A DNA stretch of 64,000 nt from an uncultured Rhodobiaceae bacterium. GTDB taxonomy: Bacteria; Pseudomonadota; Alphaproteobacteria; RS24. Shown here piece by piece: positions 29,891-62,523 of this stretch; the first letter of the stretch is position 1; each line of letters begins with the position of its first letter. The position numbers were made by a program, and so were the translations under genes. The stretch spans positions 621,501 through 685,500 of the forward strand of contig CALCUM010000003.1 of the NCBI GenBank assembly GCA_937907245.1. Direction: 5' to 3'. Under the pieces are notes generated by a model that was not told the DNA's origin, searched no databases, and saw only the letters and a program-made list of their open reading frames with translations.

Positions 29891-29967
<77 letters not shown>

Positions 29968-30039: not shown

Positions 30040-30107
30040 TTTTCTTTCTTTTTTTGAAATCCCAAGATACGGTTCAAAAAGTTAGCATTTGTATTGAGTA
30101 TGTTGAA

Positions 30108-31290
30108 ATGAGTATGGGAAAAGACGCCGATGAGCGAATAGATTTGTATGACGATGGGCGAATAATCCTATTCAAACGCCCCGAATACAAGAAGCCGAAT
30201 TGGTATGCTCGGATAAAGGTCAGGGGATCTACTGGCTATAAAGTCGTTAGCACCAAAACAAGCGACCTAAGAAAAGCTGGTCGTTATGCTGACGAGTTAG
30301 CGGAAGAATTATATTACAAAGTTAAAGAGGGTGGGTCAGTCAACTCACCGTCATTCAAAAAAGTCTATAATGATTGGAAAAAGAACGCCCTTACAACTTC
30401 CTCCACACGCCAAGGGCAATCCTGGAAGAATACCTGTGAACGCATCGAAGCTTATGCCTTGGACTACTTCGCCAGCAAACGAATAGATAGCTTTAAGTCG
30501 GGGGACTTTGTTGAATATTTTAGTTGGCGTGAACACAACTACAAACGAACGAAACCATCGCCAAATACTTTAAAAAGAGAACGAACCTGCCTCTTACCCA
30601 TCTTTAATTATGCGTATCAAAAGAACCTAATCCGTGAACTGCCTTCAATACCTACAATAAAAGCCGAAGCAAAGCGCCGCCCCACTTTCACCGCCAAGGA
30701 GTGGGCGCGAATTACAAGAAAAATGCGCGATTGGGTTAAAGAGGGTAAGAAAGTTGGTAGCTGGCGTGAGCGATTTGTTGCCCAACAATATTTTCTTATT
30801 TTAGCCAATACTGGACTTAGGGTGGGAGAAGCAAGGGAACTGACTTGGGCAGATATTCGAAGGGTGGACACAAATAAAGAAAAGTTCGTTATTGCTGAGG
30901 TCGGGGGTAAAACAGGAAGTCGCGAAGTCATTTTTTCAGCAACAAGCTGAAACCTATATCGACCGCCTATGGGATCTTAGAAAAGAAGAATTGGGCGAAA
31001 ATCCGAGCGACGCTGAATTCGTATTTTGTAAAAAAGATGGGTCTTCGATTCATTCATTTAAGAAGTCATTCAGGAGCCTAATCGAGTTTTCGGGTATTAC
31101 TGAAAAACGTAATGGAATGGCTCGGAGTATCTACTCTCTTAGACACTTCTACGCAACGATGCGGCTCTCTAATAATGTAAGCCCCTGGATGCTAGCTAAG
31201 AATATGGGGACATCGGTTGAGATGCTCGACAAACATTACGGTCAAACTATTAACTCCGAACTCGCCGACCAGATCACTAAGACTTTATAG
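30108..31290 (+). pseudogene. Tyrosine-recombinase integrase, frameshifted
   Basis: An island integrase split into two frames. Part 1 (30108-30950) has an N-terminal arm-binding region, a SAM-like core-binding domain and the first catalytic arginine in NTGLRVGEAREL; part 2 (in the +1 frame) has SLRHFYATMRL and the nucleophile tyrosine in DKHYGQT. The frames join cleanly if one T is removed from the T6 run at 30931-30936, giving ...EVIFQQQAETY. All catalytic residues are otherwise present, so the lesion is recent, a sequencing error, or a slippage site. The start could also be an upstream TTG at 30054. Confidence 0.9.
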
Positions 31291-32481: not shown

Positions 32482-33099
32482 CTAGGGAAACTGCCCCTCA
32501 CAAACCCTTCCCATCGTTTCTCTCGCCCGTTTTAGAGCTCTATTGACGGTATTGGTGAGTTCTTTTTGGTCTACGTCGTAAAAGTTACCATCTTCTGACA
32601 TCTTCTTGCCGTGTGGATTTAAGCTCGTATAACTAAAACGCTCGCTAACGGCGTCCCTTGGTTTCTTACTGCGGCTATCTAAACCTAGCTCAAATCTATA
32701 TACGGCATTTGCTATATCCAGCGTGTTCCTTCGCTTTCCTATTTTCATAGGCGCATCTTTAAATCTATAACAAAGCCAGCTTAAGCGGATGCTCTCGGTT
32801 TTAGGTCGGGTTGTTGTGAAGGGAAATTTTTGTTTATCGGTTCGCTCTACTAGTCCGAAACAATCCCTCCAATATTCCCGCCACCAGTTATCAAAGCTCA
32901 TACCCATTACGGCTTTTTTACCGCCCCACTTCTTGTATTTCCGCCAATTAACGGAAAAATTAGGATCCTTTTCGGCAATCTGTAGCAACCTAAACCAGTA
33001 AATGTAGTTCACCTTTCTGTAGGGTATCCATAGACCGTCTTTGTGGCGGATCCAGTCCGACGCGCTTTGGTCTCGATTGGGAATATCTATCCTAGGCAT
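32482..33099 (-). CDS. Aromatic-rich island protein, unknown
   Basis: A 205-aa basic protein exceptionally rich in Trp and Tyr in its first half (VNYIYWFRLLQIAE; FDNWWREYWRDCFGL). Proteins with the pattern YxYWFxxLxxA...WWxxxW are familiar to me from integrated elements as uncharacterised, but I know no function. The C-terminal half is basic and may bind nucleic acid. It is divergent from the 33218 gene, and the leader repeat copy A begins 19 bp upstream of its start. Confidence 0.7.
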   Translation of the reverse strand: MPRIDIPNRDQSASDWIRHKDGLWIPYRKVNYIYWFRLLQIAEKDPNFSVNWRKYKKWGGKKAVMGMSFDNWWREYWRDCFGLVERTDKQKFPFTTTRPKTESIRLSWLCYRFKDAPMKIGKRRNTLDIANAVYRFELGLDSRSKKPRDAVSERFSYTSLNPHGKKMSEDGNFYDVDQKELTNTVNRALKRARETMGRVCEGQFP

Positions 33100-33117
33100 A
33101 GTTAATATTAACCTAAC

Positions 33118-33217
33118 CAGACTTTACCTCCGACTACTTTTTTAGCCTCCTTAGCTATTCTGTTTATAGAGGTTCGGTAATGGTTCTCTACCTCTTAGAC
33201 AGAACTGGAGATAGAAT
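33118..33217 (+). promoter_or_regulatory. Leader repeat, copy A, with conserved hairpin
   Basis: First of three related ~100-bp segments, each placed directly before a small gene. It opens with CAGACTTTACCTCCGACTAC, continues to TTAGCTATTCT, then has a hairpin AGAGGT (33168-33173) / ACCTCT (33190-33195) around a 16-nt loop containing GGTAATGGTTCTC, then GGAG and the start ATG at 33218. The stem differs from copies B and C at three positions, each with a matching change in the partner strand. Confidence 0.8.
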
Positions 33218-33661
33218 ATGTCTGATTGTAAAAAAAGCACAGACACTCAAAAGCACCTTCGAGAGATTAAGCTTAATCAAGCAGTAGAGCTGAATGATAG
33301 TTTCGGTTATTGGATATCCCGAAGCGCCTATATCTATTCTTTTAGAAAAGACTTGCTACCTTTGCCCCCATATAAGCATCAAATTTTACCTTTCAAAGGC
33401 GCGGGCTTGGTGTTCCGCTCGGGGTGGATGACTATTATTGAGGACGAGACAATTCCCGAAGACGAATTCCACAAATATCATATTCTATATCGTGGGATAG
33501 GCTTTCCGAATGGCGAATATTGGAAAATTTGTGATTTTGTTCCTGAGAATTTTGAGACCGACTTACCCTATGTGTCGTTTGTTGATGATTTTTGCCAACA
33601 AGCTTACCCGACTAATATGCGAATTTGTCCTTCTTCACGCAAATCAACAATTAGCATTTGA
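33218..33661 (+). CDS. Island protein behind leader A, unknown
   Basis: A 147-aa soluble protein starting at the ATG that follows GGAG by 7 bp. It is rich in Tyr, Phe and Pro and ends in a short basic tail (CPSSRKSTISI). No family recognised. It is the first of three genes (33218, 33783, 34320) that share the repeated leader, which suggests common control; the three proteins themselves are not obviously related to one another. Confidence 0.7.
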   Translation: MSDCKKSTDTQKHLREIKLNQAVELNDSFGYWISRSAYIYSFRKDLLPLPPYKHQILPFKGAGLVFRSGWMTIIEDETIPEDEFHKYHILYRGIGFPNGEYWKICDFVPENFETDLPYVSFVDDFCQQAYPTNMRICPSSRKSTISI

Positions 33662-33677
33662 TCTTAGATGGCTGGAA

Positions 33678-33782
33678 CAGACTTTACCTCCGACTACTTT
33701 TTAGCCGCCGTTAGCTATTCTGAATATGAAGCTAGGGAATGGTTTTTTAGCTTCTTAACTGAAAAGTCTTATGGAGAAAACT
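33678..33782 (+). promoter_or_regulatory. Leader repeat, copy B, with conserved hairpin
   Basis: Second leader copy. The first 44 bp are nearly identical to copy C. Hairpin GAAGCT (33728-33733) / AGCTTC (33749-33754), extendable by one A-T pair, loop GGGAATGGTTTTT; GGAG at 33773-33776 serves the ATG at 33783. Confidence 0.8.
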
Positions 33783-34196
33783 ATGGCTCAACTACAACAA
33801 TTTAAGCTTGCTCGCGAGCAAGGAAGAAAAGTAAAGCACACCAAAACATCACCTTTTTTAACGTCAATGATAGAAGACCTATCTCACGACTTGAAGGGTT
33901 GTATAAACGATAGCAGGTTTGTGTTTGAGGATAAAAATACTGGAATAGAAGTTCACGTTGATTTTGACGAGAACGCAACCTTCCAACGTGAAACTCCGAG
34001 GCAAAAACTTGCTGAGAACGTCTTTCTTATCCTTTATCCAGGCTCAAAAAAGAGACACGCAAAGATGTTTACAAGAGAGACTGGCTATAAAGGTTCGTTA
34101 AACACAGCCGCGTTTCTATTGGCTCACGCTAGCTATTTGTTGGCGCTGAAAGAAGCTGAATTCCTTAATACATTTTTATGTGATGAAGCTGCCTAA
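33783..34196 (+). CDS. Island protein behind leader B, unknown
   Basis: A 137-aa protein (MAQLQQFKLAREQ...). I place the start at 33783 because GGAG lies 6 bp upstream and this aligns with the starts after leaders A and C; an ATG four codons earlier overlaps that GGAG. The N-terminus is basic, the middle has a beta-rich stretch (GIEVHVDFDENATF), and the C-terminal third is helical and hydrophobic (AAFLLAHASYLLALKEAEF). No family recognised. Confidence 0.7.
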   Translation: MAQLQQFKLAREQGRKVKHTKTSPFLTSMIEDLSHDLKGCINDSRFVFEDKNTGIEVHVDFDENATFQRETPRQKLAENVFLILYPGSKKRHAKMFTRETGYKGSLNTAAFLLAHASYLLALKEAEFLNTFLCDEAA

Positions 34197-34215
34197 TTAG
34201 CTTTTAGGCGGTTGT

Positions 34216-34319
34216 CAGACTTTACCTCCGACTACTTTTTAGCCGCCGTTAGCTATTCTAATAATGAAGCTGAGGAATGGTTCTTTAGCTTCTTAATTGA
34301 AAAAACTATGAGGTTTAAA
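34216..34319 (+). promoter_or_regulatory. Leader repeat, copy C, with conserved hairpin
   Basis: Third leader copy. Hairpin GAAGCT (34266-34271) / AGCTTC (34287-34292), extendable by a G-T wobble where copy B has A-T; loop AGGAATGGTTCTT. GAGG near 34310 serves the ATG at 34320. The 20 bp upstream of the copy (TTTTAGGCGGTTGTCAGAC region) recurs at 34683-34701, beyond the gene. Confidence 0.8.
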
Positions 34320-34667
34320 ATGACTAAAATTGAAAAAACTATAACTTTGAATGAACTGAACTCTATTGAGTTCGAAGCTGCCTGCCCCCGCTGTGATGCT
34401 GAAACCACTATCGGTTTAAGGGGTTCTCATTCCTGTAGTAACTGTGGTTTGGTGATTGAATATGTGGCTCGCTCTTACATACCCACCGATTTAGAGGAAA
34501 TAAACGAACAACGTGATAATCACGCCTTAGAACCGATGAGTGAAATGGATATCCCTACTTGGTGGATGGATTATGCTTGTCGAAATAAGGAGTTTTCCTT
34601 AGGGGTGGATTTTCAACTTAAGGATGAGGTTTCGCTTCCGTTTGAATGGAAAGCTGAGCCCCGCTAA
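34320..34667 (+). CDS. Zinc-ribbon protein behind leader C
   Basis: A 115-aa acidic protein with a zinc-ribbon: CPRC at residues 22-25 and CSNC at 39-42, followed by a helical C-terminal region. Start at 34320 (MTKIEKT), chosen by analogy with the other two leader-controlled genes and by GAGG upstream; the frame stays open into the leader back to a TTG at 34212, but that extension is the repeat itself. Zinc ribbons of this size are found in small regulators and in accessory proteins; no function is assigned. Confidence 0.7.
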   Translation: MTKIEKTITLNELNSIEFEAACPRCDAETTIGLRGSHSCSNCGLVIEYVARSYIPTDLEEINEQRDNHALEPMSEMDIPTWWMDYACRNKEFSLGVDFQLKDEVSLPFEWKAEPR

Positions 34668-34682
34668 AGCAGCTAAATTCGT

Positions 34683-34722
34683 TTTTAGGCGGTTGTCAGA
34701 CTTTACTTACGACCGCCTAAAA
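34683..34722. repeat. 11-bp inverted repeat, possible origin or terminator
   Basis: TTTTAGGCGGT (34683-34693) and ACCGCCTAAAA (34712-34722) enclose an 18-nt loop that contains CAGACTTTAC, the opening of the leader repeats. It lies 16 bp after the zinc-ribbon gene, so it may be its terminator (T-rich tail follows). It is also 187 bp before the RHH/Rep operon and could be part of a replication origin. Confidence 0.6.
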
Positions 34723-34837
34723 TCCTTTCTTGTATAAATATTACCTGAAATACCTGAAGTAATACCGCTTGGCTGGTGTGGTTTAAGCCCTTAAGTAAGC
34801 CGCCGTATTACGTCTGTTTTTCTTAATAAATATCTCT

Positions 34838-34863
34838 GTCAGCTGAAAACCGTTTTAGCTGAC
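34838..34863. repeat. Inverted repeat upstream of RHH-Rep operon
   Basis: GTCAGCTGAAAAC then C then GTTTTAGCTGAC: a 12-bp stem with one bulged base and almost no loop, ending 45 bp before the RHH start. It is well placed as an operator for the ribbon-helix-helix protein or as the cruciform of a rolling-circle double-strand origin. The rest of 34723-34908 is AT-rich with no gene visible. Confidence 0.6.
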
Positions 34864-34908
34864 GTAGCTTGCTAATGCCTAATTACCCTTAAAGAGGATT
34901 AACCCCTA

Positions 34909-35061
34909 ATGAACTCTAAAACGACTAACCCTTATGAACGTATTGTAACCTTTAAAGTTCCTAACGCTCTCTACAAACAAATAAATAAAGAGGCTGATAA
35001 ACGTCTGATGAATAAATCTACTCTTATCCGCTCTTTAATCCTGAAAGAATTAAACGCTTAA
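34909..35061 (+). CDS. Ribbon-helix-helix (CopG-like) regulator
   Basis: A 50-aa protein with the ribbon-helix-helix layout: strand RIVTFKVP (residues 11-18), helix A ~19-32, turn NKS, helix B TLIRSLILKEL. The size and position, 5 bp before a probable rolling-circle Rep, mimic copG-repB of the pMV158 plasmid family, where CopG (45 aa) represses its own operon and limits copy number. GAGGA stands 8 bp before the ATG. The inverted repeat at 34838 is the natural operator candidate. Confidence 0.75.
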   Translation: MNSKTTNPYERIVTFKVPNALYKQINKEADKRLMNKSTLIRSLILKELNA

Positions 35062-35066
35062 ATCCT

Positions 35067-35741
35067 ATGAATTTAGAACACCTGACATATCAAAAAGTAA
35101 AACTCTTTACTGACCTCTATAAAGATACTGAAGCTGATAGGGCTAAAGAAGCCTGTCTATATCACGCTACCGTTACCTTTCGCCCAGGCTGGCTATTTAA
35201 AAATAAGGATAAAGAATTTGAAGTAGTGAAGGCTGCTTATCTGGCTCTAATTAATAAAGCTAATAAGGCGTCGATGAATAAATCTGACAGAGCACGAAAT
35301 AAGCCTTATCTGCTTCAAGACTTTTCTAGCTTTGAGGATTTATCTAGAAACTCAATAGATGATACTTACCTTCACGCGCACGCTATCTGGTTTATCCATC
35401 CTAAAGTCGTCTCCCGCTTTAACCAACGCTTTGAGGATATGTGGCGGAATAGTTCGCCGCTCTTTATTGCTGATGAGCCTGTAGAACTTTCTAAAGCTAT
35501 ACATTCCGTAAAGCTCGTTCCTATTCGCCCTAAAATGCGCCGTTATGGATTTAAGGAGCGTTGGGAACTCTTAACTACGGAAATTAACTACATCCTTAAG
35601 CAAAATGAATTCAGTGGAAAATTTATAAAGGATACAAGTAATTCCTTAGGCGGCGTTTCTTTTGCTGATGAACTAAAGAACCTTACTAAACGACAATCAC
35701 GCTTCGGTTTGTTTTCTCCCGTGAGTAGCCGCTTTTACTAG
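35067..35741 (+). CDS. Probable HUH rolling-circle replication initiator
   Basis: A 224-aa protein that carries, in order, a motif-I-like strand ATVTF (34-38), the metal-binding pair H103-A-H105 within YLHAHAIWFI, an RFEDMW segment and INYILKQN with a Y175-x-x-K178 nucleophile motif. That order and spacing match HUH Rep proteins, which nick a double-strand origin and attach to the 5' end. It directly follows the RHH gene with no ribosome site of its own, implying coupling. Identification is from motifs only, with no overall similarity that I can name. Its last ~15 codons recur as a remnant at 36824. Confidence 0.65.
   Translation: MNLEHLTYQKVKLFTDLYKDTEADRAKEACLYHATVTFRPGWLFKNKDKEFEVVKAAYLALINKANKASMNKSDRARNKPYLLQDFSSFEDLSRNSIDDTYLHAHAIWFIHPKVVSRFNQRFEDMWRNSSPLFIADEPVELSKAIHSVKLVPIRPKMRRYGFKERWELLTTEINYILKQNEFSGKFIKDTSNSLGGVSFADELKNLTKRQSRFGLFSPVSSRFY
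35691..35735. repeat. 3' end of rep, left copy of cargo-flanking repeat
   Basis: A 31-bp core (35701-35731) is identical to 36834-36864, with imperfect extension on both sides. In this copy it encodes the C-terminus SRFGLFSPVSSRFY of the Rep-like protein. Confidence 0.85.
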
Positions 35742-36823: not shown

Positions 36824-36869
36824 CGGCAATCAAGCTTCGGTTTGTTTTCTCCCGTGAGTAGCCGTTTAT
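36824..36869 (+). pseudogene. Remnant of a second rep gene 3' end
   Basis: Immediately after the stop of the 35800 gene the reading frame RQSSFGLFSPVSSRL followed by TAA matches the C-terminus of the Rep-like protein (RQSRFGLFSPVSSRFY). The nucleotide core is 31 identical bases (36834-36864). No upstream part of rep is present here. Confidence 0.75.
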
Positions 36870-36916
36870 AAGTATCGGAATGGGTTTTGAGGAGACTTAC
36901 CCCCCCTAACTGGGTA

Positions 36917-39570: not shown

Positions 39571-40131
39571 ATGTTTATCGGATACGCCAGAACTTCAACA
39601 GTCGAACAGCAATACGGCTTAGACCACCAAGAGACGATACTTATCGATACTGTCGGCTGTGATAAAGTTTTTAAGGAGCAAGTATCAAGCGTTGGTAAAC
39701 GCCCTGAGTTTGAAGCGGCTATAGAATTCGCCCGTGAAGGGGATGTCTTTGTCGTGACTAAGCTGGATAGGTTCGCCCGCTCCATTACTGACTTGTGGAA
39801 TAACGTCGAACGGCTTCGGGCTAAGGGCGTTGAGTTGAATATCGTTGATATGAACCTTGATACTTCCACGCCTACAGGAAAGCTACTTTTGAGCCTGATG
39901 GGTTCGATCGCTGAGTTTGAACGGGAGATATTGCTGGAACGTCAGCGTATTGGTATCGCTAAGGCTAAGGCTGAAGGAAAATACAAAGGGCGTGCTCCGA
40001 AAGCTCGAGATAAGGAATTGGATATTCAACGTATGACTGCTGAGGGTAAGAAGCCCAAAGCCATCGCTGAGGCTCTCGGAATCTCTGTTCCCTCTGTCTA
40101 TAAGTATCGAAATAGGTTATCCAGTATTTGA
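39571..40131 (+). CDS. Serine recombinase (resolvase/invertase family)
   Basis: A 186-aa small serine recombinase. The nucleophile is Ser9 in YARTSTVEQQ with Arg7 beside it; KLDRFARS and the long helix SIAEFEREILLERQRIG follow, and the C-terminus is a helix-turn-helix (KPKAIAEALGISVPSVYKY). All catalytic parts appear intact. AAGGA precedes the ATG. It could invert, resolve or integrate DNA within the island. The segment coding its HTH (40051-40110) recurs, diverged, after the R-M genes. Confidence 0.92.
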   Translation: MFIGYARTSTVEQQYGLDHQETILIDTVGCDKVFKEQVSSVGKRPEFEAAIEFAREGDVFVVTKLDRFARSITDLWNNVERLRAKGVELNIVDMNLDTSTPTGKLLLSLMGSIAEFEREILLERQRIGIAKAKAEGKYKGRAPKARDKELDIQRMTAEGKKPKAIAEALGISVPSVYKYRNRLSSI

Positions 40132-40162: not shown

Positions 40163-41410
40163 ATGATACCGAGTCCAGAAAATACAGCAGATTATATTAA
40201 ATACAAACGACAGAGCCTTGGCTTAACTCAAAAGGAATTCGCTGAGTTACTGGGGCTTAGGGATACTAGCGAGCGAACTATCAGCGGCTGGGAGCGTGGC
40301 GAACACACTCCAACCAAAGCAAAATTCAAAGAAATAGAAACGATCAATGTTTCAGTTCCCTTCCGCAAAACAGGTAAAACCACGTTTGATTTTATTGACC
40401 TATTCGCTGGTATTGGCGGGATGCGTCTGCCATTTCAAGAATTAGGCGGGAAATGCGTCTTTACATCGGAGTGGGATAAATTCGCTAAAAAGACATACGC
40501 CGCTAACTACGGCGAACTACCATTCGGAGACATTTCAAAAATTCCAAGCGAACAAATTCCTAACCACGATGTTTTGCTTGCTGGATTTCCCTGCCAAGCA
40601 TTCTCACAGGCTGGGCTAAAGAGGGGTTTCGCCGACACTCGCGGAACTATGTTTTTCGAAATTCAAAGAATTCTATCAGCTAAGCGACCTAAAGCGTTTC
40701 TATTAGAGAATGTTAAGCAATTAAAAGGGCACGACAAGGGCAGAACTCTAGAGACCATCCTCTCAATTCTAAGGGGTGAAAACGCACCTAAAATTCCAGA
40801 TAACATTCAAATATCCGACGAAGCTCGTCAAAGCCTTCAGGCAAGATTAAACTATGCTGTAGATTTCCGAGTTTTAAAGGCTTCAGATTTTGGCGTGCCT
40901 CAAGGTAGGGAGCGTGTTTATATCGTCGGATTCGACAGATCCCAACTTGGTGATAAAAGCATTGATACAGTTTTAAACGATATTTTCGAGGACTTGTGTT
41001 CCCGAAAGAGCGCCACACGCCTCGGGGATATTATGGAGAAACACGCAGAAATAGATCCAAAATATACGATTTCAGATAAATTGCTTTCGGGTCACAAAAG
41101 GCGTCTGGAAGAGCACAAAAATAAGGGCAATGGCTTTGGTTTCAGTGTATTCAATGAGGATAGCCCTTATTGTAATACAATCAGTGCTCGCTACTACAAA
41201 GACGGCAGTGAGATTTTGCTTAGTCAGGAAAAATTAGGGAAAAACCCAAGAAAGCTCACTCCAAGAGAGTGCGCTCGGATCCAGGGATTTCCTGAAAACT
41301 TCATAGTTAGTGCCGTTTCTGACGCTCAAATATACAAACAATTTGGCAACTCTGTAGCCGTTCCTGTCGTTCGAGAAGTAGCAAAAAAAATAGTCCAAAC
41401 TATTTCCTAG
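40163..41410 (+). CDS. C5-cytosine DNA methyltransferase with N-terminal HTH
   Basis: A 415-aa modification methylase. Residues ~8-60 are an XRE-type helix-turn-helix (LTQKEFAELLG...TISGWERGEHTP), followed by a complete C5-methylase: motif I DLFAGIGGMRLPF, catalytic PCQ with Cys144 (AGFPCQAFSQAG), ENV at ~182-184, QGRERVYIVGFD, and GNSVAVPVVREVAKKI. An HTH-fused methylase that represses its own R-M operon is known from the SsoII/Ecl18kI group; the architecture here is the same, but the recognition sequence cannot be predicted by eye. Little ribosome site is visible. The endonuclease follows after 58 bp. Confidence 0.93.
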   Translation: MIPSPENTADYIKYKRQSLGLTQKEFAELLGLRDTSERTISGWERGEHTPTKAKFKEIETINVSVPFRKTGKTTFDFIDLFAGIGGMRLPFQELGGKCVFTSEWDKFAKKTYAANYGELPFGDISKIPSEQIPNHDVLLAGFPCQAFSQAGLKRGFADTRGTMFFEIQRILSAKRPKAFLLENVKQLKGHDKGRTLETILSILRGENAPKIPDNIQISDEARQSLQARLNYAVDFRVLKASDFGVPQGRERVYIVGFDRSQLGDKSIDTVLNDIFEDLCSRKSATRLGDIMEKHAEIDPKYTISDKLLSGHKRRLEEHKNKGNGFGFSVFNEDSPYCNTISARYYKDGSEILLSQEKLGKNPRKLTPRECARIQGFPENFIVSAVSDAQIYKQFGNSVAVPVVREVAKKIVQTIS

Positions 41411-41468: not shown

Positions 41469-42455
41469 ATGAAGCGACTTACATTCGATGGAAAAACAAT
41501 AACAATAACCGATCCTAAAGAATTACATTTTGAAAATTCTTTGGACGAGTTCCTCTATGGTTTCGTTTACCAGCGTTTGACAGATGGGTCGGATTATCGA
41601 CCACTGATAAACGCAGATGCCCTTCACGATGGCTCACTAGGAATCAATATAAAAGAACTTTTTTTGGATTCTGGAATTAAAATTAAGCCGCCATCGGTGA
41701 AAGCAACAAATCAACATCGATTATTCGACCAACATATAATTAGGAATTTCATTAGTAGGTTCCCTGTTTTTCTCGGACTTTTCCAAAATGTTGTAGTGCT
41801 CGCCGATCAAGCCATAAAAAACGCAGAGATACTGGTTGGCGAGGAAGTGAATTCAAAGAACTTTATCAAAATCAAAGGCGTAATTGATGAGGTAAATAGA
41901 AAGGCTTGGAGCAGGGTTAAAGATCAAAGCGAAAGCCAGTCTGGCGTATCAACGCTTGGAACTATATCAGAGACTTTGTTGAAGATTATTTTCGATAAGC
42001 TTGTAGATGAAACAACGTTTTTTAAAGTCGATCAAAGCTCAGTTCAGTCATATGGCGACTTTGTGCTGATGTGTTTGCCAAATAATCTATGGTTATCCGT
42101 GAAGTCAAACTTTGCTCGTGAGCGACTTTTGGCTTCTGGATATACTAATGACATTCTTGGCGTTGGATTCTTTCAAGACCCAACCGAATTCACTAGCAAT
42201 GTAAGAATTAGGAATTTTCAACGAGCTGGCTTCTTGGCTATGTATTGCCCTGACGTGTCGGTAAGCGAGGAGCAACTCGCTGATAACACTAATACCTATG
42301 ACCTTATTATAGCCTCCTATAAAGCTCAGGGCAGCACGCTGCCAACGAATATTAACGGTAAGCCGTTTATACGAAAACTAAGTGACCTTTATGGTGATCT
42401 CGAGGCTCTATTAATTGAATCTGACATTAGAAAAAGAACCACGGTAAACTTTTAA
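41469..42455 (+). CDS. Type II restriction endonuclease, PD-(D/E)XK-like
   Basis: A 328-aa protein directly after the C5-methylase, with GAGGG before the ATG. The likely catalytic core is YGDFVL...LSVKSN: Asp197, then S-V-K with Lys212, spaced as in many type II nucleases with degenerate PD-(D/E)XK sites. The position and the core make it the cognate restriction enzyme. Family beyond that is not recognised. It ends 15 bp before the resolvase remnant. Confidence 0.8.
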   Translation: MKRLTFDGKTITITDPKELHFENSLDEFLYGFVYQRLTDGSDYRPLINADALHDGSLGINIKELFLDSGIKIKPPSVKATNQHRLFDQHIIRNFISRFPVFLGLFQNVVVLADQAIKNAEILVGEEVNSKNFIKIKGVIDEVNRKAWSRVKDQSESQSGVSTLGTISETLLKIIFDKLVDETTFFKVDQSSVQSYGDFVLMCLPNNLWLSVKSNFARERLLASGYTNDILGVGFFQDPTEFTSNVRIRNFQRAGFLAMYCPDVSVSEEQLADNTNTYDLIIASYKAQGSTLPTNINGKPFIRKLSDLYGDLEALLIESDIRKRTTVNF

Positions 42456-42470
42456 ACTTGGTGGGGTCTA

Positions 42471-42542
42471 AAGCTCAAAGCAATCGCTGAGGCTCTCGGA
42501 ATTTCGGTTCCCTCGGTTTACAAATATCGGGAGGCTGCTTAG
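42471..42542 (+). pseudogene. Remnant of a second resolvase 3' end
   Basis: Sixty bases (42471-42530) match the resolvase segment 40051-40110 at 51 positions and preserve the reading frame: KLKAIAEALGISVPSVYKYREAA followed by TAG. Eight of the nine differences are synonymous, so this derives from a functional homologue rather than a fresh copy. Nothing upstream of the HTH remains. Confidence 0.85.
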
Positions 42543-43618: not shown

Positions 43619-43666
43619 GCCCTCCGAAGGCAGAGGTCACAGGTTCGAATCCTGTCGGGTGCACCA
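43619..43666 (+). repeat. Right attachment repeat (attR), tRNA-Arg 3' fragment
   Basis: A 48-bp copy of the tRNA-Arg 3' half including CCA, without the 5' half, so not a functional tRNA. It differs from the left copy in one T-stem pair (both sides changed) and the discriminator base. By the usual logic of tRNA integration this is the original host 3' end displaced by the island. Confidence 0.92.
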
Positions 43667-43698
43667 CTCGCTAAAAGCACTTCGCAGCTTAGCCGCGT

Positions 43699-62425: not shown

Positions 62426-62438
62426 CTCTGTCTCCCGT

Positions 62439-62523
62439 AAAATATAGGCGTTATGCCTCAAAATATAGGCGATATGCCCTGATATATAGGCGGTATGCCC
62501 CGATATATAGGCGGTATGCCCAT
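62439..62523. repeat. Four-copy 21-bp array upstream of the reductase gene
   Basis: Units at 62439-62459, 62460-62481, 62482-62502 and 62503-62523, each with the form ATATAGGCGNTATGCC. Each contains the imperfect dyad GGCGGTATGCC. It lies 14 bp upstream of the reductase start, in the intergenic region shared with the MFS gene, and could be iterated operator sites or slippage products. Confidence 0.9.

Follow-up and report, generated by a model that had tools for sequence, protein, structure and literature searches.

A repeated leader with a retained hairpin precedes three unrelated genes of a tRNA-Arg island and may be a 5′-UTR module

Why should three small, co-directional genes that encode unrelated proteins all be preceded by nearly the same segment of DNA? 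The question is raised by an island in the window (the whole stretch of DNA analyzed, 64,000 nt in length), which belongs to a 1.8-Mb genome assembly of three contigs. A first-pass annotation had placed three copies of a shared leader at 33118, 33678, and 34216, each ending at the start of a different gene, and on both counts our analysis agrees with it. Copy A (33118–33217, + strand), copy B (33678–33782, + strand), and copy C (34216–34319, + strand) each carry an 88-nt repeat and match a covariance model (95 bits for copy A), and each copy of the repeat stops just short of the Shine–Dalgarno (SD) sequence and start codon of an unrelated gene. Within the genome, the leaders cross-match with E = 5.6e-14 (A/B, 83% identity), 1.3e-12 (A/C, 82%), and 6.9e-31 (B/C, 92%), and copies B and C are, judging by their sequences, recent duplicates of one another. 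A fourth, partial copy (D; 34667–34713, + strand), which the annotation had missed, follows the last gene of the array on the 3′ side of gene C and has its left part in common with copy C (34186–34232, 85%). Copy D holds a near-perfect 14-pair hairpin (34683–34722, z −6.8) with no T run after it, which may mark the end of the array transcript.

The genes behind the leaders were delineated by open reading frame (ORF) and homology searches, and all three encode orphans on the + strand: gene A (33218–33661, 147 aa), gene B (33783–34196, 137 aa, with an alternative in-frame ATG at 33771), and gene C (34320–34667, 115 aa, with a weak zinc-ribbon match under the Pfam cut-off). As first annotated, the three are mutually unrelated; comparison of their proteins gave no similarity, and an origin by tandem duplication of entire genes is rejected for that reason. 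No homologues of these genes or of the ORF at 35067 were found in the databases searched, and the single-sequence structure model of the gene B product is poor (mean pLDDT 39). The ORF at 35067–35741 encodes a 224-aa orphan whose HxH motif (HAHAIWFIHP) recalls HUH Rep proteins; it yielded no family, homologue, or structural match (model mean pLDDT 48, fold search empty).

The 13.7-kb region that houses the array lies between tRNA-Arg(CCG) (29891–29967) and a repeat of the tRNA 3′ end (43619–43682), and we infer its status as an island from this tRNA repeat, the presence of an integrase, and its composition (41% G+C, whereas the whole window has 51%). The integrase region (30054–31290) is split into two overlapping frames, 30054–30950 and 30892–31290, so the gene is either frameshifted or mis-sequenced; only distant relatives of it were found (27%–35% identity), and their surroundings contain no copy of the leader. 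The island also contains two further direct repeats. In the first (35689–35737/36822–36870, 92%), the 3′ end of ORF 35067–35741 recurs beyond an ORF of 340 aa; the terminal part of the second copy (36864–36886) weakly resembles a resolvase tail at 40096–40118 (87% over 23 nt, E 0.55). In the second (40044–40109/42464–42529, 83%), the repeated unit is the 3′ end of a serine resolvase gene (39571–40131); its distal copy (42464–42529) is an in-frame, diverged resolvase C-terminus, and between the two copies lie a cytosine methyltransferase gene (40163–41410) and a 328-aa ORF (41469–42455), which resemble a restriction–modification pair. Outside the island, a tandem 21-nt repeat of about four units with the common core ATATAGGCG occupies 62435–62518.

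The repeats within the island introduce the main rival explanation, in which the leader is a linker left at the borders of gene modules by recombination or duplication, new genes having been inserted beside a copied stretch of intergenic DNA, and in which the hairpin is incidental or a relic. The two other direct repeats (35689/36822 and 40044/42464) also sit at module borders, and duplication with no evident regulatory role thus occurs here too; since gene addition in the island tends to leave short duplications, the leader could be another such linker. Moreover, the part shared by copies C and D starts within the last bases of gene B in one case and past the gene C stop codon in the other, so that it is not confined to the leader, and the genes are unrelated orphans, as cargo would be. 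Against this stand the ends of the copies, which stop at start codons every time, the invariance of the 5′ block while other parts diverged, and a hairpin that is stable across the divergence between A and B and better on the + strand. We regard the linker as possible, if somewhat unlikely, as a full account. It can also be compatible with a role as a leader, because a linker bringing expression signals would be favored when genes are added.

Much therefore turns on the hairpin, which RNA folding places at 33158–33204 in copy A, 33718–33763 in copy B (12-bp core, 33728–33754), and 34256–34301 in copy C (12-bp core, 34266–34292), all on the + strand. The short stems first reported are present, AGAGGT/ACCTCT in copy A (33168–33173/33190–33195) and GAAGCT/AGCTTC in copies B (33728–33733/33749–33754) and C (34266–34271/34287–34292), and the predicted structures extend beyond them. 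Copies B and C fold as GAAGCU(AG/GA)GGAA-UGG-UU(U/C)UUUAGCUUC, and because these 12 pairs are closed by a UGG triloop, the supposed conserved loop GG(T)AATGGTTYT takes part in base pairing, its GGAA-UGG-UUYU portion forming the tip of the stem in B and C. In copy A, which folds as UUCUGUUUA-U-AGAGGU...ACCUCU-UAGACAGAA, the hairpin has 15 stem pairs and a loose tip, and the outer stem UUCUGUUUA/UAGACAGAA had been overlooked. The 3′ end of the hairpin lies 12 to 28 nt from the start codon in all three copies. Predicted pairing of the hairpin was at least 0.98 in every transcript context tried, and Z-scores of the 61-nt segments were −2.8 (A), −1.0 (B), and −3.45 (C), the fold of copy B not being extreme. 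The hairpin segments have energies of −18.0 (A), −11.3 (B), and −14.7 (C) kcal/mol on the + strand and −11.4, −7.4, and −7.1 kcal/mol, respectively, on the − strand; the + strand folds better because the hairpin uses G-U pairs. In these models, the asymmetry points to a + strand RNA and favors mRNA over a cruciform, which the annotation had allowed and which is the less likely form because the G-U pairs at the stem tip are lost on the opposite strand.

The evidence that the fold is under selection depends in part on how the copies are compared. Three of the six pairs do differ on both sides, as had been claimed, in an alignment based on structure, for which one loop base of copy A was set aside so that the stems line up. 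In this alignment, 95.6% of cells pair, a value that falls to 40%–67% when the partners are slid by 1 to 3 columns, and the RNAalifold consensus beats 396 of 400 column shuffles; of 500 trials with the 3′ letters shuffled, 52 reached three double changes. In the MAFFT alignment, the single-base indel falls outside the loop, on the 5′ side of the stem, and the consensus fold beats 335 of 400 column shuffles, with 65 equal or better, which is not significant. Because the fold fails this test on a MAFFT-type alignment, the three compensatory changes depend on the alignment chosen. Copies B and C are near-identical, so all double changes stem from one divergence in which B/C is counted once, and the independent sequences for covariation are only two (A and B/C).

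Retention of the hairpin is a separate matter from compensatory change. The same hairpin is found in A, B, and C despite 21 to 22 differences over 86 columns. In neutral simulations starting from a B-like, C-like, or mixed ancestor, both hairpins were as stable as observed in 0 to 3 of 4,000 runs; from an A-like ancestor, the observed stability was reached in 481 (A,B) and 76 (A,C) of 4,000 runs, and a gapped version of the simulation gave the same trend. Stem pairing, column shuffles, and neutral simulations together agree with the earlier view that the hairpin was kept while the copies diverged, and the tests of stability retention and shuffling moderately support selection on it. We grade the hairpin as probably genuine and useful and selection on it as likely rather than certain; the results vary with the alignment and the assumed ancestor, and B/C counts once.

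Upstream of the hairpin, the first 25 alignment columns are identical in all copies (33118–33142 in A, 33678–33702 in B, and 34216–34240 in C, + strand) and include the motif CCTCC, all 21 to 22 differences falling within the other 61 columns. If differences were placed uniformly, an invariant run this long would be expected anywhere with a chance of about 0.6%–2%, and the invariance of the block suggests function or gene conversion. In minimal-leader folds, the CCUCC of this block is able to pair with each SD sequence, namely TGGAG in gene A (33206–33210), TGGAG in gene B (33772–33776), and GAGGT in gene C (34310–34314), all on the + strand. Folding predicts that the SD pairs with far-upstream sequence at 0.91–1.0 in minimal leaders, a level reached by 9 (A), 7 (B), and 32 (C) of 300 dinucleotide shuffles, so that A and B stand clear of the shuffled background and C does so less markedly. 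Long-range SD pairing of at least 0.7 is also seen in 5 of 23 control genes, and any CCUCC is capable of pairing with an SD, which weighs against specific sequestration. SD–CCUCC pairing ranges from 0.00 to 0.94 depending on the flanking sequence added and is 0.00–0.35 in several longer transcripts; because it shifts in this way with the transcript ends, we treat SD sequestration as a modeled hypothesis, perhaps involving a bistable fold.

How the leaders would be transcribed bears on whether they act as RNA at all. A scan of 32900–35300 found no σ70-like promoter (0, against 5.0 expected in shuffles), which leaves TATTCT, put forward in the first-pass annotation as a −10 element, without support. 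The companion proposal, that the hairpin forms the 5′ end of the mRNA, is likewise unsupported, and the invariant 25 nt upstream of the hairpin would fall outside such a transcript. Leader A shares a 118-bp gap, bounded by a divergent gene, with a perfect palindrome, GTTAATATTAAC (33101–33112, 0.06 expected), that lies immediately before it and is a possible operator. Inspection by eye suggests TTGGGA-18-GTTAAT (33077–33106), which, if a promoter, would place the transcription start within the first bases of the repeat. The lack of recognizable promoters between the genes fits a single A-B-C operon.

The same region suggests a control site at the DNA level, at which the 25-nt block and the inverted repeat would bind an island regulator, for example the small ribbon-helix-helix protein encoded just downstream (34909–35061), each gene having its own promoter. 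The position of leader A, in the divergent gap and adjoining the palindrome, and the invariance of the 25-nt block are in keeping with this idea. It is nevertheless quite unlikely in our estimation: the palindrome is absent from copies B and C, the hairpin arms vary from copy to copy, as a binding site would not, and the promoter scan recognized no σ70-like sequence.

The leader might alternatively be a translated leader peptide or the remnant of a duplicated gene (DFTSDYFLAAVSYS...), since copies B and C both keep the frame open and that of C continues into gene C. Copy A has no start in this frame and a stop one codon upstream, and its peptide diverges after DFTSDYF, so that most of the peptide is missing; B–C differences are distributed over codon positions 1:2:3 as 3:2:2, which gives no coding signal, and no homologue was found. 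In a search for further leader copies, a pattern for the peptide-coding sequence had at least 119 matches in genome contigs, and among the matches listed none was alike beyond the pattern. With no start in copy A and no coding signal, we set this very improbable reading aside.

The explanation we prefer, to which we tentatively assign a probability of about 45%, is that the leader is a duplicated 5′-UTR module on three co-directional, unrelated island genes that acts on translation initiation or mRNA stability. The sequence itself displays the parts of such a module: the 5′ block of 25 invariant nucleotides that includes CCUCC, then a short linker that varies, and last the retained + strand hairpin. 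Under the 5′-UTR reading, the segment would be transcribed as the leader of each gene, with A, B, and C probably in one operon, and would exert its effect at translation initiation or on mRNA stability. In the version we favor, the hairpin would bring the CCUCC block beside the SD, and the closed form would lower translation until some protein, RNA, or ribosome opened the leader. A more ambitious form, in which an undescribed, self-contained leader RNA, made up of the invariant CCUCC block and the covarying hairpin, serves as a plug-in unit of translational control that the island sets before each captured gene, we consider unlikely.

Because no relative of the leader was found anywhere searched, its role is one that we infer. 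The first-pass annotation had pointed to a covariance-model search for further copies; our model, for which one loop base of copy A was dropped to bring the stems into register, matched only the genome's own copies across 97 relatives and a 385-genome sample of the class, apart from two weak matches (E 0.05–0.09 per genome) that are at chance level over 97 genomes. A search of the whole genome recovered no leader copies outside the island, and no relative was found in the phages, plasmids, or viral contigs searched, where leader patterns of 16 to 21 nt gave no matches or chance matches in the viral contigs. In line with the annotation, which named no described element with this loop, the leader has no Rfam match, and tRNA-Arg is the only Rfam match in the window. 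The confinement of the leader to one island in the data searched limits its present reach. The coordinated small-gene regulon that the annotation suggested is a candidate reading, given orphan genes, a leader with no relative in these searches, and duplications elsewhere in the island that have no evident regulatory role. How newly acquired island and phage genes are controlled is mostly unexplained, and a common leader before unrelated cargo would, if true, be a simple answer; the plug-in form would place unrelated cargo genes under one post-transcriptional switch. If it is only a linker, the leader documents how such islands are assembled.

Several known systems share features with the array. 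Integron attC arrays also consist of co-directional, unrelated small ORFs with foldable repeats between them, whereas here folding is stronger on the + strand and each repeat stops at a start codon; an integron array was rejected, no integron integrase (TIGR02249) scoring over the cut-off in the genome. Leaders that sequester the SD include ROSE-type thermometers and translational riboswitches. With these the element has in common a 5′ leader of about 100 nt and an upstream segment that in minimal-leader folds can pair with the SD, but it has no Rfam match above the gathering score and suggests no ligand. An RNA thermometer was discarded, SD pairing being predicted in silico to hold steady at 0.88–0.98 from 10 to 45 °C. 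ROSE-like elements are the subject of PMC3669281.

By analogy, the nearest described system is the Extended Start-Associated Sequences (ESAS) of Cluster K mycobacteriophages, which consists of imperfect inverted repeats with a variable spacer just upstream of several translation starts (PMC3203893). The ESAS genes are unrelated and non-structural, and a role in translation is suspected; the element has 17-bp arms of conserved sequence, adjoins the conserved 13-bp SAS GGGATAGGAGCCC at the ribosome-binding site, and occurs in many copies across related phages (PMC3203893). The leader resembles it in that several unrelated genes of one mobile element each have an inverted repeat immediately ahead of their translation start. 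The two differ in that the SAS is absent from all three SD regions, the leader arms vary between copies whereas those of ESAS are conserved, a 25-nt block precedes the leader hairpin, the leader copies number only three, and the host is unrelated. Lacking the SAS and having an invariant block of its own, the leader may work like ESAS but is not one; it adds a new case, so far from a single island, of a leader repeated close to gene starts.
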